Assembly (NCBI RefSeq): GCF_006539545.1
Contig: NZ_BJNF01000035.1
Span: 1 to 37,683 of the forward strand
Length of the DNA stretch: 37,683 bases
Direction of reading: 5' to 3'
Source of the DNA: Nitrobacter winogradskyi
GTDB lineage: Bacteria > Pseudomonadota > Alphaproteobacteria > Rhizobiales > Xanthobacteraceae
Shown here: positions 972 through 37,683 of the stretch, one piece after another
Layout: each line of letters opens with the position of its first letter
How positions within the stretch are numbered: the stretch's first letter is position 1
The notes under the pieces: model-generated
Database searches by the model: none
What the model was told of the DNA's origin: nothing
The model's input: the letters and a program-made list of their open reading frames with translations, nothing else
Translations under genes and position numbers: made by a program

Positions 972-1100
972 TAGAGCATTTTCGCTTCTGATTGAATCAG
1001 AAGCGAAGCTCTGGACTGTTGTTTGACGCGTTTTCTTCACGCGAACCGGATTCCATCCTCGGGTCAAGCCCGAGGACATGCTTCGCTCGAAAACGCTATA
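972..1100. repeat. Family B palindromic repeat, full copy
   Basis: The copy begins with tagagca and a perfect hairpin (ttcgcttctgattgaatcagaagcgaa, about 981-1007, quoted in two halves: ttcgcttctg and cagaagcgaa). It continues through gacgcgttttcttcacgcga and a second hairpin (cctcgggtcaagcccgagg), and ends with cttcgctcgaaaacgctata. Similar copies lie at 13529-13654 and, inverted, at 16603-16732 and 37619-37683. It is open in the addB frame and would falsely extend that gene. Confidence 0.85.
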
Positions 1101-1145
1101 TCCTCCCCGTGTCATGATATGCCTGATCTCGAATCAGGATCTTTT

Positions 1146-4100
1146 ATGCGCGTCCGCAACATCCCCCCCTCGGTACCGTTCCTGCATACGGTCATCACCG
1201 CGCTGGTCGACGGCGAGCTGATCGAGGGATTCCGCCCGCGCGCGCAGCCCGAGCGGCTTGCCGAGGCCACGCTTTATCTGCCGACCCGCCGCGCCGGCCG
1301 CATGGCGCACGATATCTTTCTCGAGGTGCTGGATACCGACGCCGTAATCCTGCCGCGCATCGTCACGCTCGGCGACATCGACGAAGACGAACTGGCTTTC
1401 GCCCAGGCCGTCCCGCTGTCGCGCGAAACGCTCGAACTGCCGCCGGCGCTGGACGGGCTCGCGCGCCGCCTCGCGCTGGCGCAGCTTATCGACGCATGGG
1501 CGCGTCGGCTGAAACCCGGTGAGCCGGAGGAGCGGACGCCGCTGGTTCTCGGCGGCCCGGCCTCGACGCTGGCGCTTGCGGATGACCTCGCGCGGCTGAT
1601 GGACGACATGGCCACGCGCGGCGTGGACTGGCGTGCGCTCGACAGGCTGGTGCCCGAGGCGCTCGACCGCTATTGGCAGCTCACGCTCGATTTCCTGAAG
1701 ATCGCGCGCGACTACTGGCCGGTTCACCTTCAGGAGACCGGCCGGATCGAACCCGCGGCGCGGCGCGATCGCCTGATCGAGGCCGAAACCGCGCGTCTCG
1801 TCGCCCATCATGCGGGACCGGTGATCGCGGCGGGCTCCACCGGCTCGATGCCATCGACCGCGAAACTGCTGCATGCCATCGCCACGCTGCCGCAAGGCGC
1901 GGTCGTGCTGCCGGGGCTCGACACCGACCTCGATGAAGAGGCGTGGGAGTTGATCGGCGGCGTCAGGGATAAAACGAACGGTGCGTTCATCAGGCCGCCC
2001 GCCGCCGGTCATCCGCAGTTCGCGCTGCACGGCCTGCTCGCGCGCTTCGGCATCAAACGATCCGGGGTGAAAGCGCTCGGCTTCCCCGCGCGATACGGGC
2101 GCGAAATGCTGGCGTCCGAGGCGATGCGGCCGGCGGAGGCGACCGCGCAATGGCACACCCGGCTCGCCGAGCCCGAGGTCGCGGAGAAGATCGCGGCCGG
2201 ACTGCAAAACCTCGCCGTGATCGCGGCCGCCAATCCGGAAATGGAAGCGCTCGGCATCGCCGTCGCCATGCGCGAGGCGCGCGACCAGAACAGGACCGCG
2301 GCGCTGGTGACGTTCGACCGCGCGCTGGCGCGACGGGTGATGGCGGCGCTCGGCCGCTGGAATCTCGCCTTCGATGATTCGGGCGGCGATCCGCTGATGG
2401 ACACGCCTGCGGGAATCTTCGCACGGCTGGCCGCCGAAACCGCATGCAACGGTCTGGAGCCCCCGACCCTGCTGGCCTTGCTGAAGCACCCGCTGTGCCG
2501 GCTGGGACGCGCGGCCGGCGGCTGGTCGCGCGCCATCATGACGCTGGAGCTTGCGATCCTGCGCGGCACCCGGCCGCCACCGGGCGGCAAGGGTCTCGCG
2601 GACGAATTCGCGCGCTTTTGCGGCGAGCGCGAGAAGCTCGATCGCGGCGAAAGTTCCTCGCTGCATCGCAGCGAGCCCTGCGCTGCGCTGAAGCCGCATC
2701 ATCTCGATGATATCAGCGCCCTGATCGTGGCCCTGCGGGATGCGCTCGCGCCGCTCGAAGGCGATGGCCCACCCGCGTCGGCGGACTTCACCCTCCTCGC
2801 CATGCAGCACCGCCAGGCTATCGAAGCGTTATCCTGTGACGACGAAGGCGTCGCCGCCGCATTCGACGGCCAGCACGGCCGTGCGCTCATTGATGCTTTC
2901 GACGACCTGCGCGGGGCGGGCGAGCGCAGCGGCCTGACGGTCAGGATCGCGGACTACCCGGACACGTTCGAGGCCGCGTTCGGCGACCGCGTCGTGCGCC
3001 GGCCGCAGACGACATCGGCGAGCCTGCGCATCTACGGACCGCTGGAAGCGCGTCTGACCCAATGCGACCGCGTCATCCTCGGCGGGCTCACTGAAGGCGT
3101 CTGGCCACCCGCGCCGCCGACCGATCCCTGGCTGAGCCGGCCGATGCGGCACGAACTGGGGCTCGATCTTCCGGAACGGCGCATCGGACTGTCCGCGCAC
3201 GATTTCACGCAACTGCTCGGCGCCGGCGACGTCATCCTCAGCCATGCCGCCAAGACCGGGGGGTCGCCGGCGGTGGCGTCCCGTTTCCTGCATCGGCTCG
3301 AAGCCGTCGCGGGCGCGACACGCTGGGCAACTGCCAAACAAGCCGGCGCGCGATACATTCAGTATGCCGAAGCGCTCGACCGGCCCGACGAGGTCACGCC
3401 CATCGCGCAGCCCGAGCCGAAGCCGCCGCGCACGGCGCGGCCGACGCACCTGTCCGTGACCGCGATCGAGGACTGGCTGCGCGATCCCTATACCATCTAT
3501 GCCAGATACATCTTGAAGCTCCTGCCGCTGGAGGCCGTCGACATGCCGCTGTCGGCGGCGGACCGCGGCTCGGCGATTCACGACGCGCTCGGTGATTTCA
3601 CCAAACTTTATCCGGCCAACCTGCCCGACGATCCGGAAGACGTACTGCGCGCCATCGGCGAAATCCGTTTCGCGCCGCTGATGCAGCGGCCGGAAGCGCG
3701 CGCGCTGTGGTGGCCACGCTTCCAGCGCATCGCGGCATGGTTCGCGGGATGGGAGCTGACGCGGCGGACGCATCTGGTCAGGATCGACGCCGAGGTCAGC
3801 GGCAAAATCGAAATACCGATCGACGGCGATCGCAGCTTCATTCTGTCGGCGCGCGCCGACCGTATCGAACATCTCGGCGGCGGCCGCTTTGCCGTTCTCG
3901 ATTACAAGACCGGCAATCCTCCGAGCAGCAAACAGGTGCGGCTCGGCCTCTCGCCACAGCTCACGCTGGAATCCGCGATTCTTCGCAACGGCGGCTTCGC
4001 GGGCATTGCTCCCGGCGCATCGGTCAGCGAACTGGTCTATGTCCGGCTGAGCGGCAACAACCCTGCCGGCGAATCGAGACCGGTCGATCTCGATAACGGC

Positions 4101-4304
4101 AAAACCGCAACCCAGTCGCCGGATCAGGCGGCCGATCGCGCTCTTGAAGAACTCACCGCGCTGATCCGCGCTTTCGACGACGAGCAGCAGGGCTACGCAT
4201 CGCTCGACCTGCCGATGTGGAAAACCCGCTACGGCGCCTATGATGATCTCGCACGGATCAAGGAATGGTCGGCGGCCGGCGGACTTGGGTCGGAGGAATC
4301 GTGA
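1146..4304 (+). CDS. addB: Double-strand break repair protein AddB
   Basis: AddB is the partner of AddA in the AddAB helicase-nuclease, which resects double-strand DNA ends and recognises Chi-like sites, feeding RecA-dependent recombination (the role RecBCD plays in E. coli). The predicted 1052 residues match the alphaproteobacterial AddB size. The C-terminal PD-(D/E)XK nuclease domain shows the active-site stretch VLDYKTGNPPS near residue 915. LPTRRAGR lies near the N-terminus. The start at 1146 has AGGA at 1136-1139, six bases upstream. Upstream in-frame codons (TTG 1023, ATG 1119) only translate the family B repeat and the spacer. The stop overlaps the addA start by four bases (GTGA), implying coupled translation. 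Confidence 0.93.
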   Translation: MRVRNIPPSVPFLHTVITALVDGELIEGFRPRAQPERLAEATLYLPTRRAGRMAHDIFLEVLDTDAVILPRIVTLGDIDEDELAFAQAVPLSRETLELPPALDGLARRLALAQLIDAWARRLKPGEPEERTPLVLGGPASTLALADDLARLMDDMATRGVDWRALDRLVPEALDRYWQLTLDFLKIARDYWPVHLQETGRIEPAARRDRLIEAETARLVAHHAGPVIAAGSTGSMPSTAKLLHAIATLPQGAVVLPGLDTDLDEEAWELIGGVRDKTNGAFIRPPAAGHPQFALHGLLARFGIKRSGVKALGFPARYGREMLASEAMRPAEATAQWHTRLAEPEVAEKIAAGLQNLAVIAAANPEMEALGIAVAMREARDQNRTAALVTFDRALARRVMAALGRWNLAFDDSGGDPLMDTPAGIFARLAAETACNGLEPPTLLALLKHPLCRLGRAAGGWSRAIMTLELAILRGTRPPPGGKGLADEFARFCGEREKLDRGESSSLHRSEPCAALKPHHLDDISALIVALRDALAPLEGDGPPASADFTLLAMQHRQAIEALSCDDEGVAAAFDGQHGRALIDAFDDLRGAGERSGLTVRIADYPDTFEAAFGDRVVRRPQTTSASLRIYGPLEARLTQCDRVILGGLTEGVWPPAPPTDPWLSRPMRHELGLDLPERRIGLSAHDFTQLLGAGDVILSHAAKTGGSPAVASRFLHRLEAVAGATRWATAKQAGARYIQYAEALDRPDEVTPIAQPEPKPPRTARPTHLSVTAIEDWLRDPYTIYARYILKLLPLEAVDMPLSAADRGSAIHDALGDFTKLYPANLPDDPEDVLRAIGEIRFAPLMQRPEARALWWPRFQRIAAWFAGWELTRRTHLVRIDAEVSGKIEIPIDGDRSFILSARADRIEHLGGGRFAVLDYKTGNPPSSKQVRLGLSPQLTLESAILRNGGFAGIAPGASVSELVYVRLSGNNPAGESRPVDLDNGKTATQSPDQAADRALEELTALIRAFDDEQQGYASLDLPMWKTRYGAYDDLARIKEWSAAGGLGSEES

Positions 4305-7300
4305 AAGCGCCCCGCCCCGTTCATCCCGACGCCAGCGCGCGCCAGCAGCGCGCGTCCGATCCGGCCGCATCGGTGTTCGTGTCGGCCAATGCGGGATCTG
4401 GCAAGACGCACGTTCTCGTGCAGCGCGTAATCCGCCTTCTGCTCAACGACGTCGACCCCGCGCGCATCCTCTGCATCACCTTCACCAAGGCCGCCGCCGC
4501 GAACATGGCGGAGCGGGTGTTCTCCACGCTGGGTCACTGGGTCACGCTCGACGATGAGACCTTGAACGTGGCGCTGCGCGATGTCGGCATCGCGCAGCCC
4601 GGCGCGGGATGGCGCGAGCGAGCACGCAAGCTGTTCGCCTCCGCGCTCGAAACACCGGGCGGCCTGAAAGTGCAGACCATCCACGCGCTCTGCACGCGGC
4701 TATTGCAGCAGTTTCCTTTCGAGGCCGAAGTGCCGGCACGTTTTACCGTGCTCGACGAGCGCGACCAGACCGAAATGATGGAGCGCGCAAGCATCCATGT
4801 CATGCTTGACGCCGCGCAGAATCCGGACAGTCCGGCCGGCCGCGCGCTGCAATATGCCATGGGCGCGGAGGCCGACTCGACGCTGCGCGATGTCATCCGT
4901 CAGGCTTGCCTCCGCCGCGATCATGCCGTGGCGTGGACCGGGGATCGCGGCACCGGGCAAGCGGTCCGGGACGTCGCCGATGCGCTCGGCGTCGATCCGG
5001 ACGAGCGCGTCGAGGGCGTCGAGCGCGAGATGATCGACGGGCCGAACCTGCCGCGAAGCAAGTGGCTCGATACGGCGGCGCTGTTCGCAACAGGCAGTTC
5101 GAATGACATCAAACAATCTGAACGGCTGCGCGCCGCCCATGCGGAAGCGGGCGACGCCGCGCAGGCCGATCGCTACCTCGACGTCTTCCTGACCGCAGGC
5201 GGCAGCCCGCGCAAATCCTTCGTCACCAGGAAGATCAGCGATGTCAGGCCCGCCATCGCTGAAATGCTCGCCGATGAATGCCAGCGCGTGATCGCGCTGC
5301 TCGCACGCCGCTGCGCGATCAACATCCGCGACCGCACGCAATCCCTGCTCGTCATCGCCGCGGCGGTCGCCGCCCACTACCGGCGCGAGAAGCACGAACG
5401 CGGCCTGCTCGACTATGACGACCTGATCGACAAGACGCTTCGGATGCTGGAGCAGACCTCGCCCGGCTGGGTTCACTACAAGCTCGATCGCGGCGTCGAT
5501 CACGTGCTGATCGACGAGGCGCAGGATACCAGCCCCAAGCAATGGGACATCGTCGAGCGCATCATCGCGGACTTCACCACCGGCGAAGGCGCGCGCGAGG
5601 GCGTGCGCCGGACCGTGTTCGCGGTCGGCGACGAGAAGCAGTCGATCTTCTCGTTCCAGGGCGCGGCGCCGCGCGAATTCGACGAGCGGCGGCGCAAGCT
5701 GGAGAGGAAGTTTACCGATGCAAAACTTCCGTTCCGCAAGGAGGATTTCATCTACTCGTTCCGGTCCGGCAAAACGATCCTGGAATCGGTCGACCATGTG
5801 TTCCGCGATCCCGAAATCTACGCCAGCATCCATGCGGTCGGCGCTCACCCCGTGCACGAATCGCTGGCGGACGCCGCACCCGGCATCGTCGATCTCTGGA
5901 ATCTGGAGGAGCGGGACAAGCGCGAGGAGATCGAGGGCTGGCGCGCGCCGTTCGATGCGGTCACCGCAACCAGCCCCGAGGTCAAGCTCGCCCGACGCAT
6001 CCGCGACGAGATCAAGACGCTGATCGCGCAAGGCGCCATGACCGGGCATCTGGGCAACCGTCGCCCGCTCGGCCACGGCGACATCCTGGTGCTGGTGCGG
6101 CGGCGCGGCAACGCCTTCGACGCCGTCATCCAGGCGCTGAAGCAGTCCGGCATTCCGGTGGCCGGCGCGGATCGTCTTAAACTCACCGAGCATATCGCGA
6201 TCATCGACCTGATGAACCTTGCGGATGCGCTGCTGCTGCCACGGGACGATCTGGCGCTGGCGGTGGCGTTGAAAAGCCCGCTGTTCGGCCTCGACGACGA
6301 CGACCTGTTCAAGCTGGCGTGGCAGCGGGAGGGCTCGCTACGCGATGCGCTCGCCGGGCACGCGGCCGCCGGCGACAAATTCCGCGACGCCTTCGAACGC
6401 CTGAAGCGGTGCGAAAGTCGCGCCGCGCGCGACACGCCGTTCGCGTTCTTTGCGTGGCTTCTGGGCGAGGAAGCCGGACGGCGGCGGATCCTGCGCCGGC
6501 TCGGCCATGAAGCCAATGACGCGCTCGATGAGTTTCTTGAACTGGCGCTGACCTATGAGCGCAAGGCCCCCGCGTCGCTGCAAGGCTTCATGGCGTGGCT
6601 GCGCGCCGCCGATACCGAGGTGAAGCGCGACATGGAAATCTCGCGCGACGAGGTCCGCGTGATGACCGTGCACGGCGCCAAGGGGCTGGAGGCCTCGGTG
6701 GTGTTTCTCGCCGACACCTCGACTTCGCCGGCCGACACCGAGCGTCTCAGCCTGATCCGCATGGCGCGCGGCAACGCTCCCGCCGGCGTTGCCGGCGTGA
6801 CGATCTGGGCCGGCAGGAAGGCCGAGGATCCGCCTTGCGTGGCGCAGGCCCGCGCGGCCATGACCGCGGAAACCGAACACGAATATCGCCGCCTGCTTTA
6901 CGTCGCGATGACGCGCGCGGCGGACCGCCTGATCGTCGGCGGCTGCAAGCCGGCCAACCGCAAGGACGTTCGGGAATTGTCCTGGTACGACCTGATCGAG
7001 AAAGGTCTGGACGGTTCCGGCCTTGCGATGCAGGCGTTCGAAACCGCAAGCGGCAAGGTCAAGCGTTTCACCCGGCCAGATCACGATGATCCTGGATCGA
7101 ATCGATCCAGGATCATGAACGTGATCGATTCCAATATTTTAGAGCGGGATGCGGGCGGAAAACCGCTGCACACTTTTCCTCATCCCGCTCTAGAGGAAGC
7201 CGAACCGGATGCCGCGGGCCCGGCGCCGCCGGCGTCCCCCGGCGCTACCCCGATCGCGTTGCCGCCGTGGCTGCATCGCTCAGTCGGGCCGGAAGCACCC

Positions 7301-7906
7301 GCGCTCCGATCGCTGCGACCATCGGATGCCGACGAGGCCGCGCATCACCGCTCGCCGGCCGGCGTTGCCCCGGATCAGCGCCACCATGCGCGATTGCGCG
7401 GCACGCTGGTGCATCGCCTGCTGCAATCCCTGCCCGAGGTGCCGCGGGATCGACGCCGCGACGCGGCGCTGTCCTATCTCGCGCGCAACGCGAATGACTG
7501 GGACAAGGCCGAGCACGACGCGCTGGCGGCGCAGGTCGTGGCGGTGCTCGATGATGCGAGGTTCGGCCCCGTTTTCGCGGAGGGCAGCCGGGCCGAGGTC
7601 GCGATCGCCGGGCGGCTGAAGACGCGGCGGGGCGATCCCCTGCCGGTCTCGGGCCAGATCGACCGGCTCGTGGTCACTCCGCACGGGGTTCTGGTCGTCG
7701 ACTACAAGACCAGCCCCGCGTCTGCGAACCTGGCCGACGTTCCGCCCGCCTATATCCGCCAGCTCGCGCTCTATCGCGCGGTGCTCGCAGGCCTGTACCC
7801 GGAACTGCCCGTCAAGGCGGCGCTGCTCTGGACCGAGGCGCCTGAAATGATGGAGATTTCCGTCTCGACGCTGGATGCCGCCCTGGAAGCCATCATCTCG
7901 GTGTGA
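4301..7906 (+). CDS. addA: Double-strand break repair helicase AddA
   Basis: AddA is the superfamily 1 ATP-dependent helicase and nuclease subunit of AddAB. In order: Walker A NAGSGKT (residues 30-36), motif Ia CITFTKAAAANMAERV, Walker B LIDEAQDTSP (near 402), motif III VGDEKQSIFSFQGA (near 441), motif V VMTVHGAKGLE (near 786), motif VI LLYVAMTRAADRL (near 867), and the C-terminal nuclease with GTLVHRLL (near 1032), QIDRLV and VVDYKTSP (near 1132). The GTG start at 4301 is preceded by GGAGG at 4292-4296 and overlaps the addB stop; an ATG at 4265 is possible but lies inside addB. Residues about 927-965, in the helicase-nuclease linker, are encoded by a palindromic repeat (7079-7193) inserted in frame. 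Predicted length is 1201 residues. Confidence 0.93.
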   Translation: MKAPRPVHPDASARQQRASDPAASVFVSANAGSGKTHVLVQRVIRLLLNDVDPARILCITFTKAAAANMAERVFSTLGHWVTLDDETLNVALRDVGIAQPGAGWRERARKLFASALETPGGLKVQTIHALCTRLLQQFPFEAEVPARFTVLDERDQTEMMERASIHVMLDAAQNPDSPAGRALQYAMGAEADSTLRDVIRQACLRRDHAVAWTGDRGTGQAVRDVADALGVDPDERVEGVEREMIDGPNLPRSKWLDTAALFATGSSNDIKQSERLRAAHAEAGDAAQADRYLDVFLTAGGSPRKSFVTRKISDVRPAIAEMLADECQRVIALLARRCAINIRDRTQSLLVIAAAVAAHYRREKHERGLLDYDDLIDKTLRMLEQTSPGWVHYKLDRGVDHVLIDEAQDTSPKQWDIVERIIADFTTGEGAREGVRRTVFAVGDEKQSIFSFQGAAPREFDERRRKLERKFTDAKLPFRKEDFIYSFRSGKTILESVDHVFRDPEIYASIHAVGAHPVHESLADAAPGIVDLWNLEERDKREEIEGWRAPFDAVTATSPEVKLARRIRDEIKTLIAQGAMTGHLGNRRPLGHGDILVLVRRRGNAFDAVIQALKQSGIPVAGADRLKLTEHIAIIDLMNLADALLLPRDDLALAVALKSPLFGLDDDDLFKLAWQREGSLRDALAGHAAAGDKFRDAFERLKRCESRAARDTPFAFFAWLLGEEAGRRRILRRLGHEANDALDEFLELALTYERKAPASLQGFMAWLRAADTEVKRDMEISRDEVRVMTVHGAKGLEASVVFLADTSTSPADTERLSLIRMARGNAPAGVAGVTIWAGRKAEDPPCVAQARAAMTAETEHEYRRLLYVAMTRAADRLIVGGCKPANRKDVRELSWYDLIEKGLDGSGLAMQAFETASGKVKRFTRPDHDDPGSNRSRIMNVIDSNILERDAGGKPLHTFPHPALEEAEPDAAGPAPPASPGATPIALPPWLHRSVGPEAPALRSLRPSDADEAAHHRSPAGVAPDQRHHARLRGTLVHRLLQSLPEVPRDRRRDAALSYLARNANDWDKAEHDALAAQVVAVLDDARFGPVFAEGSRAEVAIAGRLKTRRGDPLPVSGQIDRLVVTPHGVLVVDYKTSPASANLADVPPAYIRQLALYRAVLAGLYPELPVKAALLWTEAPEMMEISVSTLDAALEAIISV
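7079..7193. repeat. Family A palindromic repeat inside addA
   Basis: This 115-base element has two hairpins: one around atcctggatcgaatcgatcc and one formed by agagcgggatg with catcccgctct. It is the inverted form of the copies at 14418-14534 and 35015-35133, which lie between or at the ends of genes. Here it is read through in the addA frame without a stop and adds about 38 residues to the linker between helicase and nuclease domains. Confidence 0.88.
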
Positions 7907-13528: not shown

Positions 13529-13654
13529 CTAGAGCATGTTCGCTTCTGATTGAATCAGAAGCGAAGCTCTGGATTATTGTTTTGACGCGTTTTCTTCACG
13601 CGGTGCCCATCCCGGGTCAAGCCCGGGGACACGCCTCGCTCGAAAACGCTCTAG
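13529..13654. repeat. Family B palindromic repeat, full copy
   Basis: Same organisation and orientation as the copy at 972-1100: ctagagcatg, the ttcgcttctg / cagaagcgaa hairpin, gacgcgttttcttcacgcg, a cccgggtcaagcccggg hairpin, and tcgctcgaaaacgct followed by ctag. It occupies most of the trpF-trpB gap. Confidence 0.85.
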
Positions 13655-13691
13655 TCTGCGCGGACATACCAACTCCCGTGTTTCCCGGAAA

Positions 13692-14417: not shown

Positions 14418-14534
14418 CTAGAGCGGGATGAGGAAAAGTGTGGTGCGGTTTTCCGCCCGCATCCCGCTCTCAAATATTGGAATCGATCACGTTTATGGTT
14501 TTGGACCAATTCGATCCAAAACCATCGTGATCTA
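14418..14534. repeat. Family A palindromic repeat upstream of trpF
   Basis: The element runs from ctagagcgggatg to gtgatcta with two hairpins: gagcgggatg with catcccgctc, and atggttttgga with tccaaaaccat. It matches the copies at 35015-35133 (same orientation) and 7079-7193 (inverted). The rest of the trpF-lapA gap (14535-14707) shows nothing I can identify. Confidence 0.85.
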
Positions 14535-14707
14535 TCAGCACGATGGGCCATTTCTACAACGTCGCAAGCGGCTTGTCTCGCTTGCGTGAGACGCGACCCG
14601 AACGTTCTTTCCACTTGCGACGGGGTATGCAGGATCGGCGATCGCGGAACGCGGTTCACAAGCCCAAGGACATGCTCGAGGACATGCTCGGCGGCGCTTT
14701 AACACCG

Positions 14708-16593: not shown

Positions 16594-16602
16594 TTCTCCT
16601 CC

Positions 16603-16732
16603 ATAGCGTTTTCCCGCGAAGCATATCCTCAGGCATGGCCCGAGGACAGATATCGGTTCGCGTCAAGAAAACGCGTCAAAACAACGATCTGGGACTTCGC
16701 TTCTGATTCAATCGGAAGCGAAGCTCCCGGGT
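16603..16732. repeat. Family B palindromic repeat, inverted copy
   Basis: This copy is inverted relative to 972-1100: atagcgttttc at the start, a diverged cctcaggcatggcccgagg hairpin, ttcgcgtcaagaaaacgcgt, and ttcgcttctg / cggaagcgaa. It starts next to the sppA ribosome binding site. The remaining bases up to 16867 show no gene. Confidence 0.8.
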
Positions 16733-16867
16733 TGCGGCCGATTGCACCGTCACCGGTGCACGGGTGATACCAAAGGTCCGCCAGGCTACACCAGTTGCGG
16801 CCCAATATGAAGAAAGCATGGCCGGAGTACGACACCGCGCCGTCTCGGTGATTCGGACCTTGCATGG

Positions 16868-21655: not shown

Positions 21656-21690
21656 TCGCGGGACATCAGGGTCCGCGTTCTCGCCCGGGT

Positions 21691-21713
21691 GACGCGCTTC
21701 GCTCGAAAACGCT
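21691..21713. repeat. Family B fragment abutting the pheT stop
   Basis: The sequence gcgcttcgctcgaaaacgct is the terminal segment of family B. It ends exactly where the pheT stop codon (21714-21716) begins, and lies in the convergent gap between the PP-loop gene and pheT. Confidence 0.65.
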
Positions 21714-24152
21714 TCAACCGCGCAAGCTCCCGCCGGTTCTTTTCGCGACTTCGGCGACAATTTTCCCCGCCACCGCGTCGATCTCCTGATCGGTGAACGT
21801 CCTGTCGCGCGGCTGCAGCCTCACCGCGATCGCGACCGATTTCTTGTCCGCATCGATGCCCTTGCCTTCGTAGATATCGAACACGGTGACGCCGGAGACG
21901 AGCTTCCTGTCCACGTTCTGCGCCGCGCGCACGATATCGGCCGCTTTCACGGCACGATCGACAATAAAGGCGAAGTCGCGCGACACCGGCTGGAACGCCG
22001 GCAATTCCAGCACCGGCTTCGCGCGCGTCGGTTTCTGCTTCGCCTCCGGGATGCGGTCGAGAATCACCTCGAATCCGAGCAGCGGGCCTTCGGCCTTCAG
22101 CTCGTCCAGCACCCGAGGATGCAGCTCGCCGAAATAGCCGAGCACGTTATGGGGGCCGATCTGGATCGCGGCGGAGCGTCCCGGATGCAGCCATGCGGGA
22201 AAATTCTTCGATTCATCGCTGGTTGCGATCTGCAAGGCGGCGACCGGCGCACCCGCGGCAGCCAGCACGGCGAACGCATCGGCTTTCGCATCCAGCGCAT
22301 TGACCGTGGCCGAGCCCGACCAGTGCCGTCCGAGGCCCGCCGACGAAGCGATGCCGCGGCGAAGCCCCGCGGCGGCCATGAACTGATCCTGCGGGCCGTC
22401 GCCTCTGAAGATCTGCCCGACCTCGAACAGCGCGACATCGGCAAAGCCCCGGTCGGCGTTGGCCTGTGCGATCGCGACGAGACCCGGCAACAGGCTCGGC
22501 CGCATGTCTGAAAGATCGGACGCGATGGGATTAGCCAGCGCCAGCTCGCTTGAGCCGCCACCGAACAGTTCAGCCTGCGTCCTTGCGATGAACGACCAGT
22601 TGACGGCCTCGACCATGCCGCGCGCCGCCAGCGCGCGCCGTGCCTTGCGCGTACGCGACTGGATCGGCGTCAGCACGGGTTTGCGCGGGGCCTCGCCGCG
22701 ATCGAACGGCGTCATCGGCACCTTGTCGACACCGACGATGCGCACGATCTCCTCGACGAGGTCGGCCTTGCCCTGAACGTCGGTGCGCCAGGTGGGAACG
22801 GCGACCTTCACCACCGGACCGCTGCCGGCCACCATGAAACCCAGATGGCCGAGAATGCGCCGCACTTCCACCAGGGACACGTCGATGGCCGCGAGCCGCT
22901 TGATCTCGCTCAAGGGGAAATCGATCACCCTGTCTTCGGGCAGCGCCTGCCCGGCAACGACATTCTCCGACGGCGTGCCGCCGCAAAGCTTCATGACGAG
23001 TTGCGTCGCCATCTCAAGCCCCGGCACCATGAAGGCGGGATCGACGCCGCGCTCAAAACGATAGCGCGCGTCCGAATTGATGCCGAGCCTGCGCCCGGTC
23101 TGCGCGATGTTGATCTCGCTCCACAGCGCCGATTCGATCAGCACGTCGGTGGTGGTCTCGTCGCAGCCGGTTTCCTCGCCGCCCATGATGCCGGCAAGCG
23201 ATTCGACGCCCTTGTCGTCAGCGATGACGCAGACATTCGGATCGAGCGTATAAATGCGGCCGTCGAGCGCCTTAAGCGTCTCACCGTCGCGGGCACGGCG
23301 TATCGTGAGATCGCCATGCACCTTCTTCGCGTCGAACACATGCAGCGGACGGGCGCGGTCGTAGGTCATGAAGTTGGTGATGTCGACCAGCGCGTTGATC
23401 GGACGCAGGCCGATCGAAGTCAGGCGCTTTTGCAGCCACTCCGGCGACGGACCGTTCTTCACCCCGCGCACCATTCTCAGCGCGAAGCCGGGGCAGAGCG
23501 AAGCGTCTTCCACCGTGACCTTCACCGGACAGGGGAATTCACCGATGACCGGCTTGATGGTCGGATCCTTGAAGCGGCCCATGTCGGCGGCCGACAGGTC
23601 GCGCGCGATGCCGTGCACGCCGGTGCAGTCCTGCCGGTTCGGCGTCAGGTTGATCTCGATCACGGGATCGCCGAGCCCGGCCCATTCGGCATAGCCGACG
23701 CCGACCGGCGCGTCGGCGGGCAGTTCGATGATGCCGTCGTGATCGTTCGAGATCTCAAGCTCGGCCGCCGAGCACAGCATGCCGCGGCTCTCGACGCCGC
23801 GGATGGTGCCGACACTGAGCGTGATGTTTTTTCCGGGAATATGGGTGCCGGGCGGCGCGAACACGCTGATGAGACCGTCGCGCGCGTTCGGCGCGCCACA
23901 CACCACCTGAATGTAAGCCGGCTCACCCTTGTCGCTGGTCTCACCGGTATCGACCATGCACACCCTGAGACGATCGGCGTTGGGATGCTGCACGGCGGAG
24001 ACCACGCGCGCGATGGTGAAGGGCGCGAACGTCTTCGACTTGTCTTCGATATGCTCGACCTCAAGCCCGATCATGGTGAGCTTGTCGGCGAGTTTTTCCA
24101 GCGGCTCGTCGGTGTCGAGATGATCCTTCAGCCAGGAGAGAGTGAATTTCAT
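21714..24152 (-). CDS. pheT: Phenylalanyl-tRNA synthetase beta subunit
   Basis: PheT is the large subunit of the alpha2-beta2 enzyme that charges tRNA-Phe. The 812 residues start [19 protein letters not shown] and carry the N-terminal tRNA-binding domain ([17 protein letters not shown]), the B3/B4 editing region ([34 protein letters not shown]), B5 and the catalytic-like core, and the C-terminal anticodon-binding domain ([14 protein letters not shown]). The start is two bases after the stop of the HEPN gene, so expression is tied to that gene. The C-terminus borders a repeat fragment. Confidence 0.96.
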
Positions 24153-31387: not shown

Positions 31388-33091
31388 TCACAAGAAGTTA
31401 GCGACAGCTTTCGTCGAGGACGCCACCGCGGAACTGAATCCCTCACGAAGGTTCGTCAGGAACTGAGCGAAGGGCGACGGACCAGCCTTGACGGTCTTGC
31501 GACGGTTTTCCAGCCGGTTCATGCTCAAGCTCTGCCCGTCGGCCTGCTCAGCCATCGACACGGGCGCTTCCTGGACGGAGGCACTCATTTCTTCGCTGGC
31601 AGCGGCGGCCGATTCGATCACCGTGGCGTATTGGACAACCTTGGTCGTCTTGCCCTGGGCATCGAGGACCGGGATGTACGAAGCCCGGATCCGGACTTCG
31701 CTGCCGTCCTTGGCGATACGCTTGTATTCGGCCGACTGAGCCTCGCCGCGATTGAGCTTGCCCCAGAACTCGCGATAGGCAGAACCGGAACGCTCCGAAG
31801 ACTCGACGAACATTCCGTCATGCTTACCGCTAACCTCGCCGAGGGTGTAACCCATCGCCTTCAGGTACTTATCGTTGGCGGCGATAATGGTGCCGTCCGG
31901 CCTGAACGAAGCGATCGCCTGGGCGCGTTCGATGGCGGCGAGCTGACCCTCGTTCTCCAGGGCCTTGAGCTTCCGGGAGGTGATATCGGTCGCGATCTCA
32001 ACCACCTTTACAGGCTTGCCCCTCGAATCCAGAACCGGATTATAGGAAGCCTGCAGCCAGACCGTCTTGCCATCCTTGCCGATGCGCTTGTACTCGGCGG
32101 ACTGAGCTTCGCCGCGAGCGAGCCTGGCCCAGAAGTCGCGATAGGCGGTGCTGGTCCGCTCAGCAGCCTCCACAAACATGTTGTGGTGCTTGCCCTGGAT
32201 GTCCTTGAGGAGCGAGTAACCAAGCGTTTTCAGGAAGTTGTCGTTCGCGGTCAGGATCTTTCCATCCATGCCGAGTTCGACGACCGCCTGCGACTTTCCG
32301 ATGGCCGTGATCTGGCCTTCGAGATCAGCCGACTTCACCTTCTGCTTGGTGACATCAGTCGCGAACGCAACGACCTTGAAAGGCTTGCCGCTCTCGTCCG
32401 CGATCGGGTTGAAGGTCGCCAGCAGCCACACTTCGTTCCCGGCCTTATTAATCCGCTTGTATTCAGCGGATTGAGGCTCACCGAGATTGAGCCTGGCCCA
32501 GAAGTCGCGATAGGCGTCGCCAGCCCGCTCCGATGACTCCACGAATACCCGGTCATGCTTCCCCTGCATTTCACCGAGAGTGTAGCCCATCACATTGAGG
32601 AAGTTCTTGTTCGCGGTAATGATCGTGCCGTCGAGGTTGAATTCGACCACGGCCTGCGCGCGCTCGATGGCGGAGACCTGACCCGCGTTCGCCAGATCCT
32701 TGATCTTCTTCGCGGTGATATCAGCCGCCAGCGCGATGATTTTTTTCGGATTCCCCCTCGAATCCAGCACAGGAATGTAGGAAGCCTGAACCCAGACCTC
32801 GTCGCCGTGCCTGTCGATACGTTTGAATTCGGCCGATTGGGTCTCACCCTTGTTCAGCCTGGCCCAGAAGTCGCGATATGCGGCGCCGGACCGCTCGTCC
32901 GCCTCCACAAACATGCTATGGTGCTGGCCTCGAACATTCGCCAGCGTATAGCCGAATATGCCGAGGTAGTTCTCGTTAGCCGTGATGACCGTTCCATCAA
33001 GCCCGAGCTCGATGACGGCTTGCGATTTTCTGATGGCTGCGGTTTTCGCAGCATCTTCTTTCGCGATCGACCACTTTTTGAAGAAAAACAT
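31388..33091 (-). CDS. Protein of four tandem PAS domains
   Basis: This 567-residue cytoplasmic protein consists of four near-identical PAS-PAC units with a period of about 122 residues (starting near 19, 141, 263 and 386). Each has QAVxE-x-DGTIITAN, F-GYTL, YRDFWARL, G-x-QSAEYKRI and Y-P-VLDSRG. This layout is seen in Aer-like and alphaproteobacterial chemoreceptors, but the expected methyl-accepting signalling domain is absent. After the last PAS unit there is only ESAAAASEEMSASVQ, reminiscent of the start of such a domain, and a short tail of about 60 residues. So it may be a truncated receptor or a stand-alone sensor. A CtrA-like box lies about 90 bases upstream. Confidence 0.82.
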   Translation of the reverse strand: MFFFKKWSIAKEDAAKTAAIRKSQAVIELGLDGTVITANENYLGIFGYTLANVRGQHHSMFVEADERSGAAYRDFWARLNKGETQSAEFKRIDRHGDEVWVQASYIPVLDSRGNPKKIIALAADITAKKIKDLANAGQVSAIERAQAVVEFNLDGTIITANKNFLNVMGYTLGEMQGKHDRVFVESSERAGDAYRDFWARLNLGEPQSAEYKRINKAGNEVWLLATFNPIADESGKPFKVVAFATDVTKQKVKSADLEGQITAIGKSQAVVELGMDGKILTANDNFLKTLGYSLLKDIQGKHHNMFVEAAERTSTAYRDFWARLARGEAQSAEYKRIGKDGKTVWLQASYNPVLDSRGKPVKVVEIATDITSRKLKALENEGQLAAIERAQAIASFRPDGTIIAANDKYLKAMGYTLGEVSGKHDGMFVESSERSGSAYREFWGKLNRGEAQSAEYKRIAKDGSEVRIRASYIPVLDAQGKTTKVVQYATVIESAAAASEEMSASVQEAPVSMAEQADGQSLSMNRLENRRKTVKAGPSPFAQFLTNLREGFSSAVASSTKAVANFL

Positions 33092-33711: not shown

Positions 33712-34082
33712 ATCCGAAAACAGGCGACCGATCGCGGGCCGCCGGAGGCGAGAGCTATGCCAAATGCGGCGCGCGAATGCAACAGCCGGATCAGATATTA
33801 ATGTCACTCCTCCAAGTCTTCCGGTTGGGTGACGGCCGCGAAGAGACCGGGCGAACCCGGCCGCCGATTGCAAAAATTCCGCACAGGGACCAATTTAGGG
33901 TCCGGGGCGTGCTAGCGTGACGGCTCAGACTTTGCTTTCGTCGCGACGCTTCCGTCTCGGCGAAATTTACCCAGCGGGTTTCCGATGACGAGGGTTTGTG
34001 TCACGGGGCGCTGGCCAAGAATAGGCGAACGTCGGATAACGGCACCAGACCGCTCATTCCGGGGACATCAGGCGAGGATCAC
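33712..34082. other. Gene-free stretch upstream of cnoX
   Basis: No gene is visible. The tRNA promoter (minus) and the cnoX promoter (plus) must lie here, but I find no convincing boxes. An open frame upstream of the cnoX GTG start is not supported by homology. Confidence 0.45.
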
Positions 34083-35018
34083 GTGACCATAGTCGAGCAC
34101 GGCGGCGGGCCGCCACCACAGACGCCGGATCTGATCAATGAGACGACGACGCAGACCTTCATGAAGGATGTCGTCGAGGAATCGATGCACCAGCCGGTGC
34201 TGGTCGATTTCTGGGCGCCGCGGAGCGGAGGTTGCCGCCAACTGACCCCGCTGCTGGAAAAGGCGGTGCGCGCCGCCGCCGGCAAGGTCAAGCTGGCGAA
34301 GATGAATATCGATCAGCATCCCGCGATCTTTCAGCAGCTCGCGGCCCAGATCGGCAATCAGTCGATTCCGGCGGTATTCGCCTTCGTCGGCGGGCGGCCG
34401 GTCGACTATTTCACAGGCGCGGTCCCCGAAAGCCAGGTCAAGGATTTCATCGACAAGCTGACGCAAGGCGCGGGGGCGGCGCCGGGCGCCCCGAATATCG
34501 AAGAGATCCTGCAAGAGGCAGACGCCGCGCTCGCTGAAGGCGATCCGGCCACCGCGGCCGCGGTTTATGCCGAGGCTCTCGGGATCGACGCCGCCAATCT
34601 CCGGGCGATCGCCGGGCTGGCGCGCTGCTATGCCAGCACCGGCGCGATCGACAAAGCCAAGCAAACGCTCGCGCTGGTTCCGGAATCGAAGCGTGGCGAC
34701 GCCGCCGTGACCACCGTTCAGGCCATGATCGACCTTGCCGAACAGGCGAGCTCACTGGGACCGATCGCCGAGCTCGAGCAGAAGGTTGCGGCCGACCCGC
34801 TCGATCATCAGGCACGATTTGACCTGGCCACGGCATTGAACGCCGACGGCAAACGCAGCGAGGCCACCGATCATCTGCTTGAAATCGTGAAGCGCGATCG
34901 CAAATGGAACGATGATGCCGCCCGCAAGCAGCTCGTGCAGTTCTTCGAGGCATGGGGCGCCACAGACGAAGCCACCGTGGAGGGGCGCAAACGACTGTCG
35001 ACGATTCTGTTTTCCTAG
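34083..35018 (+). CDS. cnoX: CnoX/YbbN-like thioredoxin-TPR chaperone
   Basis: This 311-residue protein joins a thioredoxin fold (about 15-130) to a TPR-like helical region (about 140-311), the layout of the chaperedoxin CnoX (YbbN), which protects and delivers clients to GroEL/DnaK. The active site reads WAPRSGGC (residues 44-51), so the usual WCGPC has become RSGGC, leaving only Cys51. Many relatives I recall keep CxxC, while E. coli YbbN has SxxC. The cis-proline is in QSIPAVFAF (Pro97). The GTG at 34083 has GAGGA four bases upstream and begins VTIVEHGGGP, which matches the usual start. The stop codon TAG is contributed by a family A repeat. Confidence 0.85.
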   Translation: MTIVEHGGGPPPQTPDLINETTTQTFMKDVVEESMHQPVLVDFWAPRSGGCRQLTPLLEKAVRAAAGKVKLAKMNIDQHPAIFQQLAAQIGNQSIPAVFAFVGGRPVDYFTGAVPESQVKDFIDKLTQGAGAAPGAPNIEEILQEADAALAEGDPATAAAVYAEALGIDAANLRAIAGLARCYASTGAIDKAKQTLALVPESKRGDAAVTTVQAMIDLAEQASSLGPIAELEQKVAADPLDHQARFDLATALNADGKRSEATDHLLEIVKRDRKWNDDAARKQLVQFFEAWGATDEATVEGRKRLSTILFS

Positions 35019-35133
35019 AGCGGGATGAGGAAAAGTGTGGTGCGGTTTTCCGCCCGCATCCCGCGTCTCAAAATGTTGGACTCGATCACGTTCATGGTTC
35101 TGGATCGAATAGATCCAGAACCATCGCGATCTA
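35015..35133. repeat. Family A palindromic repeat at the cnoX stop
   Basis: It runs from ctagagcgggatg to gcgatcta, with the gagcgggatg / catcccg hairpin and the atggttctggatc / gatccagaaccat hairpin. The first bases ctag supply the TAG stop of cnoX (35016-35018). It fills the gap to the LON-domain gene. Confidence 0.87.
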
Positions 35134-35149
35134 AGCGCCGGACCAGCCC

Positions 35150-37607: not shown

Positions 37608-37618
37608 TGCGGATTGCC

Positions 37619-37683
37619 ATAGCGTTTTCAAGCGAAGCATGTCCTCGGGCCAGACCCGAGGATGGAAGCCGGTTCGCGTGAAG
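37619..37683. repeat. Family B repeat, inverted copy cut by the window edge
   Basis: The sequence from atagcgttttcaagcgaagc through a cctcgggccagacccgagg hairpin to ggttcgcgtgaag matches the end of family B in inverted form. The rest lies beyond the window. Confidence 0.8.

Follow-up and report, generated by a model that had tools for sequence, protein, structure and literature searches.

A palindromic repeat of Nitrobacter that lies in frame within addA and three other conserved genes

Rickettsia palindromic elements (RPEs) and other MITEs can be fused in frame to genes, as described in extracts from two reviews (PMC2229807, PMC10969869) through which we also cite the source papers on RPEs, Ogata et al. 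2000 and 2002. In the same extracts, RPEs form a class of 105-150 bp that is palindromic, present in many copies and found in frame within conserved genes. The enterobacterial ERIC, Yersinia YPAL and Neisseria Correia/NEMIS MITEs are also small and non-autonomous, with frames that fuse to host genes (extracts from PMC2229807), and the Coxiella MITEs QMITE1 and QMITE2 extend or enter open reading frames, QMITE2-like hits having been reported in Bradyrhizobium (extracts from PMC5896051). Within the bacterial family to which Nitrobacter belongs, palindromic repeats named Br-REP1 and Br-REP2 are described from Bradyrhizobium, and Br-REP2 is said to belong to a larger element that Nitrobacter also carries (extracts from PMC5082802). 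In-frame insertions of palindromes or MITEs are known in several other groups, and the phenomenon we report is therefore not new in kind.

The element described here lies in a window of 37,683 nucleotides, by which we mean the whole stretch of DNA that was analysed, from a Nitrobacter winogradskyi genome (G000; 3.96 Mb, 172 contigs). Genomes G001 to G008 are listed as the same genus, and the closest named loci carrying addA are those of Nitrobacter. Like RPEs, the element is small and repeated (118 bp with both terminal tetramers, in at least 40 places in the sister genome G004) and lies in frame in conserved genes whose homologues are without it (addA, cheB, cyoC and comEC); like MITEs, it is non-autonomous and multi-copy, with empty sites. 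The likeness to RPEs is drawn from their published description, and the Nitrobacter element differs in belonging to another bacterial order, in forming two separate hairpins, in its CTAG-like ends and in its in-gene rate, which is about 3 per 38-40 places per genome, whereas a high rate is reported for RPEs in the extracts cited. ERIC, YPAL and Correia/NEMIS are set apart by their description in extracts from PMC2229807, being from other species and having different ends; unlike them, as there described, the Nitrobacter element is one family whose sites in genes comprise a loop, a tail and two linkers between domains, and for which empty sites have been aligned. QMITE1 and QMITE2 are likewise set apart by description, being larger (300-400 and 150-190 bp) with other direct repeats (extracts from PMC5896051), and the printed consensus of Br-REP1 and Br-REP2 differs by eye, those repeats being described between genes (extracts from PMC5082802). 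The element is not described in the extracts we searched, mostly from open-access papers, on Nitrobacter palindromic repeats, MITEs and repeats of the N. winogradskyi genome (including PMC5082802 and PMC2680597), and nothing in that literature appears to describe the repeat family, its tendency to sit at CTAG or its presence in four conserved proteins of a nitrite oxidiser. Drawing on the repeat family, its covarying hairpins, its empty sites, its in-frame reading in four genes and the gap in homologues, all observed directly, we think it highly likely that the element is a non-autonomous, MITE-like palindromic mobile element that works like RPEs and is tolerated in linkers and loops.

The insert in AddA and its repeat family

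The addA gene (4265-7906, plus strand) encodes the 1213-residue helicase-nuclease subunit of AddAB, recognised by its Pfam domains (UvrD-helicase, residues 28-477; UvrD_C, 604-891; PDDEXK_1, 1036-1188). Directly 5' of it is an open reading frame with a PDDEXK_1 domain (1023-4304, plus strand) that is probably addB, judging by its position. A sequence-only reading of this DNA had placed a 115-base two-hairpin element at 7079-7193 in the addA frame, adding about 38 residues between the helicase and nuclease domains. Both the position and the open frame hold: when the left CTAG-like tetramer is included, the element, bounded by CCAG and CTAG, spans 7076-7193 on the plus strand as delimited by aligned empty sites in other Nitrobacter, and the frame from 4265 to 7906 is stop-free across it. 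The net gain is 114 nt, or 38 codons, corresponding to residues 939-976 counted from the ATG at 4265 (and not to residues 927-965 or so, as first given), in the helicase-nuclease linker between the end of UvrD_C at 891 and the start of PDDEXK_1 at 1036.

We aligned fragments of 99 other AddA open reading frames, from 109 loci, the remainder having fallen below the length filter. The 38-residue segment is absent from 98 of the 99, the sole exception being that of G004, and each of the 98 has a single residue at the insert position. At least three of these 98 are duplicates, one genome under two handles: L061 (Nitrobacter vulgaris Ab1), L062 (Nitrobacter sp. 62-23) and L063 (a Hyphomicrobiales MAG) have the same sequence as L034 (G003), L035 (G006) and L037 (G008), respectively, over the 2 kb compared. 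Between two anchors the linker measures 113 residues in the two carriers versus 66-79 in the others, and at the DNA level the empty addA alleles of G005, G003, G002, G006 and G008 align on both flanks. The clean gap that the sequence-only reading expected among homologues is thus found, and a segment common to all AddA proteins is not. In an AlphaFold2 model of AddA residues 580-1213 (33 sequences), which is modest overall (mean pLDDT 68.6, pTM 0.37), fragment residues 361-421 score below 50 in pLDDT; the insert occupies 360-397, so that all of it except its first residue falls in this range and is predicted to be disordered. Its place between domains, together with this prediction, supports the earlier suggestion that the linker tolerates it.

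The element folds into two hairpins, at 7079-7126 and 7137-7195 (plus strand), as delimited by RNA folding and covariation within the family. The folding energy of the addA element is -64.5 kcal/mol, versus a mean of -31.65 for shuffled sequences (z -9.5); at the Rfam gathering score no family matched the element, a tRNA being the only match in the window. Across 75 distinct full copies, 93% of cells stay paired in the two hairpins, versus 34-50% when the structures are slid by 1-3 columns, and one hairpin pair is A-T in 36 copies and G-C in 36. Cells changed on both sides number 114, a count that kinship among copies inflates, whereas shuffles average 29.5 and reach 52 at most; counted as pairs changed on both sides, the figure is 14, which is not above shuffles (mean 8.8, maximum 14). 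We take the hairpins to be conserved structure, the copies being related. At one site in G000 (L313 and L244, contig 85) hairpin 1 stands alone where G004 carries the full element, so the hairpins are separable.

With the 115-nt element as query, we found at least 43 matches at E<=1e-5 in G000, at least 42 in G004 (a complete genome, single contig, of 3,402,093 bases) and 28 in G002, of which 3, 2 and 5, respectively, are self-matches of hairpin 1 on the opposite strand. Forty of 65 candidates were scored in G000 and 40 of 73 in G004, so these are lower bounds, with at least about 40 places in each of the two genomes, some of them partial, far more than chance resemblance would give. G007 and G008 gave no match to this query. 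Among 248 genomes sampled within the bacterial family, a peptide search detected the element in 15, in 8 of 47 genera.

The two further copies in the window that had been read from the sequence are real, and both are on the minus strand. One, at 14418-14535, is 90% identical and has no recognised gene through it. The other, at 35015-35134, was placed by sequence match, and its terminal CTAG (35015-35018) provides the TAG stop of a thioredoxin-TPR gene (33996-35018, plus strand). A general preference for providing stop codons was considered and rejected, since among 71 ends with a stop, out of 102 terminal-tetramer ends, 10 frames of at least 120 codons are closed in this way, compared with 9 and 7 in the other phases.

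The window also holds other palindromic or dispersed repeats, often adjoining one another (972-1024, 1060-1109, 13530-13582, 13613-13662, 16601-16739, 21676-21725 and 37617-37683), and similar repeats flank many copies of the element in G004. Two G004 copies, L153 and L160, share an identical 298-nt left flank and differ on the right, which suggests duplication or rearrangement at the element. Repeats of about 300 nt in direct orientation, spaced at 366-369 nt, lie at 31635-33035 within a long minus-strand open reading frame (31388-33091) and probably represent a repeated protein domain.

Copies within genes and the frame in which they are read

We followed the frames through 81 copies of the element (30 loci in G000, 30 in G004 and 21 in G002), plus 20 further loci and 29 from other genera. 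Four recognisable genes account for seven of the 81: addA, cheB and a cyoC-like gene, each in both G000 and G004, and comEC in G002. In CheB, the insert falls between Response_reg (21-131) and CheB_methylest (235-414), again with a net gain of 114 nt, and is predicted to be disordered, pLDDT being below 50 over residues 153-217, which span it. The nucleotide alignment of cheB placed the gap poorly; by BLAST coordinates, 3-7 bases separate the flanks at the empty sites in G005, G003 and G002, and in the protein alignment 12 of 13 other rows have the gap (G005, G003, G002, G006 and G008 among them); the remaining row, L261, has residues in the insert columns from a long linker of its own. The cyoC-like gene encodes an oxidase protein whose COX3 match covers residues 27-178; the insert, at about 173-212, precedes the final hydrophobic segment. 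This gene is element-free in G002, G005, G003, G001 and G006. In ComEC, the insert is in the C-terminal tail, beyond the Competence match (61-345); comEC of the aligned relatives is without the element, and the tail is highly variable in length, with other repeats in G000 and G004.

Among the places examined, these four genes hold 3 out of 38 in G000, 3 out of 40 in G004 and 1 out of 21 in G002. Bacterial genomes are mostly coding, and in-gene copies therefore look strongly under-represented, as would be the case if insertion into a gene usually did harm. Several other open reading frames that span a copy (L004, L013, L019, L146, L173, L176, L178, L228, L308/L340 and L343) were set aside, by eye and by base composition, as antisense, as upstream of the likely start or as not coding-like in composition, and at L028 in G000 no long frame runs through the copy.

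A few loci are candidates for further in-gene copies. At L245 in G006 (about 1521-1604), a shortened copy lies in phase within a 296-aa open frame that is coding-like in composition on both sides and has no Pfam match; at L341 (1500-1613, reversed locus) in G124, of another genus, a copy lies in frame close to the N-terminal end of a DctQ protein, of the TRAP transporter type; and L359 in G101 is a third.

The same reading frame of the element is used in all four genes, largely because stop codons close the others. Among the seven in-gene copies, the shared frame is the sole open one in six, and the seventh, L015, has one more; in four copies analysed in detail that have ATGAT in hairpin 1 the shared frame alone is open, and in the type common in G004 three frames are. 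Over the 81 copies, one frame is open in 36, two in 30, three in 10, four in 1 and none in 4. The shared frame was accordingly rejected as evidence of coding function, the agreement being largely forced by stop codons.

The length of the element matters for its reading in genes: in the standard form, a core of 110 nt and one tetramer make 114, which is divisible by three. A form longer by two bases, with a net length of 116, makes up 7 of the 19 full copies in G000 and would shift the frame. Between G000 and G004, the cyoC copies differ by two indels, of 3 and 6 nt, that keep the frame, whereas the indels that separate six orthologous pairs located outside these genes measure 3, 1, 2, 7, 2, 1, 2 and 1 nt, seven of eight not being multiples of three. 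This pattern, in small numbers, fits selection on the frame within a gene. Upkeep of the frame across the family was considered and rejected: the copies found by the peptide search all have a net length of 114 (10 of 10 in G101, 9 of 9 in G067), a result biased by the search itself, and an even sample of G101 (40 stretches of 20 kb) has 3 of 7 full copies with a net length of 114 and an open frame, all three already among the peptide-search finds.

Mobility of the element and selection on the addA copy

Between G000 and G004, the addA copy has changed at 1 of 115 sites, compared with 44 of 600 in its flanks, and the single change is synonymous and in the unpaired spacer between the hairpins. 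The insert has no non-synonymous change over 86.7 sites, whereas the next 300 nt downstream have 18.3 over 212.7, and in eight further orthologous pairs of full length 3 to 15 sites have changed. This conservation, as compared between two genomes, hints at constraint beyond tolerance. One possibility is that the AddA segment has been co-opted and is under selection, either as a peptide or through mRNA hairpins, very stable in this copy, that would pause translation between the helicase domain and the nuclease domain. We regard this as unlikely, in that 2.8% of same-size windows in addA have one change or none, another orthologous pair (cut by a contig end) differs at 1 of 91 sites, though with a less diverged flank (7 of 300), and the addA copy is present in only two of the genomes examined. 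Moreover, the changes in the cheB insert between G000 and G004 comprise 3 non-synonymous and 0 synonymous, and by reading of the alignment a pair has been lost in hairpin 1. Substitutions thus offer weak evidence of constraint in addA and none in cheB. A broader proposal, that the palindrome repeatedly creates linkers of 38 residues in a free-living bacterium, by virtue of its 114-nt net length, hydrophilic frame and CTAG-like sites, with the addA mRNA hairpins retained as a translational pause, is one to which we attach little probability.

The element ends in CTAGATC and GCTCTAG (ends CTAGATCACG and CATCCCGCTCTAG). Of 51 copies matched over the full length of the query, 26 have CTAG as the left tetramer and 39 as the right, selection of copies that match to the last base favouring the right-hand CTAG; most other tetramers differ from it by one or two changes. 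The target tetramers in genes are also near CTAG, being CTGG in cheB and CCGG or CCAG in addA. For five G004 copies that lie in none of the four genes, a search with their flanks joined gave one clean empty site, L154, where G000, G003 and G005 have CTAGGTTG, G004 has CTAG-element-CTAGGTTG and G002 has another tetramer. The other four gave no usable junction: G000 has hairpin 1 alone (L155) or keeps both flanks with about 140 nt of other sequence between them (L149), L145 was matched well on the right side only (in G000 with a weak 77-nt match on the left), and the flanks of L152 were unmatched. The left and right tetramers of the 51 copies do not covary (direct match, p 0.66), so we consider target site duplication, as read from these ends, to be likely and no more. 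The empty sites in addA, cheB, cyoC and comEC and at one intergenic CTAG indicate that the element is mobile, which, with the three or more further genes that carry it, agrees with the earlier proposal of a mobile family that adds segments to proteins.

CTAG-type 4-bp targets are known from IS5-type elements. The palindromic form and high copy number would also suit a REP sequence mobilised by a RAYT-type (Y1) transposase, as opposed to a MITE of a DDE-type insertion sequence. We consider this very unlikely, since a search for RAYT (Y1_Tnp, PF01797) found no match in any of four genomes, three of them rich in copies and one, G008, without the repeat, whereas the PF01797 control matched in 5 of 14 named genomes. 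Among the matches listed for G000, as judged by reading, none are partial hits resembling the two ends of one longer element. That the AddA segment is instead an ancestral protein-level feature, its likeness to the repeats being secondary, is hardly conceivable: the frame is open throughout and the domains on both sides are intact, but nearly all other AddA fragments (98 of 99) are without it, dozens of copies elsewhere are highly similar to it and the same family recurs in cheB, cyoC and comEC.

We return to a MITE-like element that is tolerated in linkers and loops. A core of about 110 nt flanked by CTAG-like tetramers would be moved by a transposase acting in trans and would insert at CTAG or a near match (CTGG, CCGG, CCAG), leaving a tetramer on each side and, in the standard form, a net gain of 114 nt, or 38 codons. 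Where orientation and phase in a gene happen to be stop-free, the element would be translated into a hydrophilic peptide, predicted to be disordered (DHDxxGSNRSxxMNVIDSNILERDAGGKPLHTFPHPAL). Insertions of this kind may be neutral, and would survive where extra unstructured residues are tolerated, as in the helicase-nuclease linker of AddA, the receiver-methylesterase linker of CheB, a loop of the CyoC-like protein and the tail of ComEC.

Nitrobacter is free-living. In this non-pathogenic alphaproteobacterium, the insertion of a palindrome into conserved proteins can be traced through occupied and empty alleles, in sister species and in four genes, which indicates that in-gene palindromes like those of Rickettsia need not depend on an intracellular life style. 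The question of whether the segments so added are tolerated or useful thereby becomes testable.
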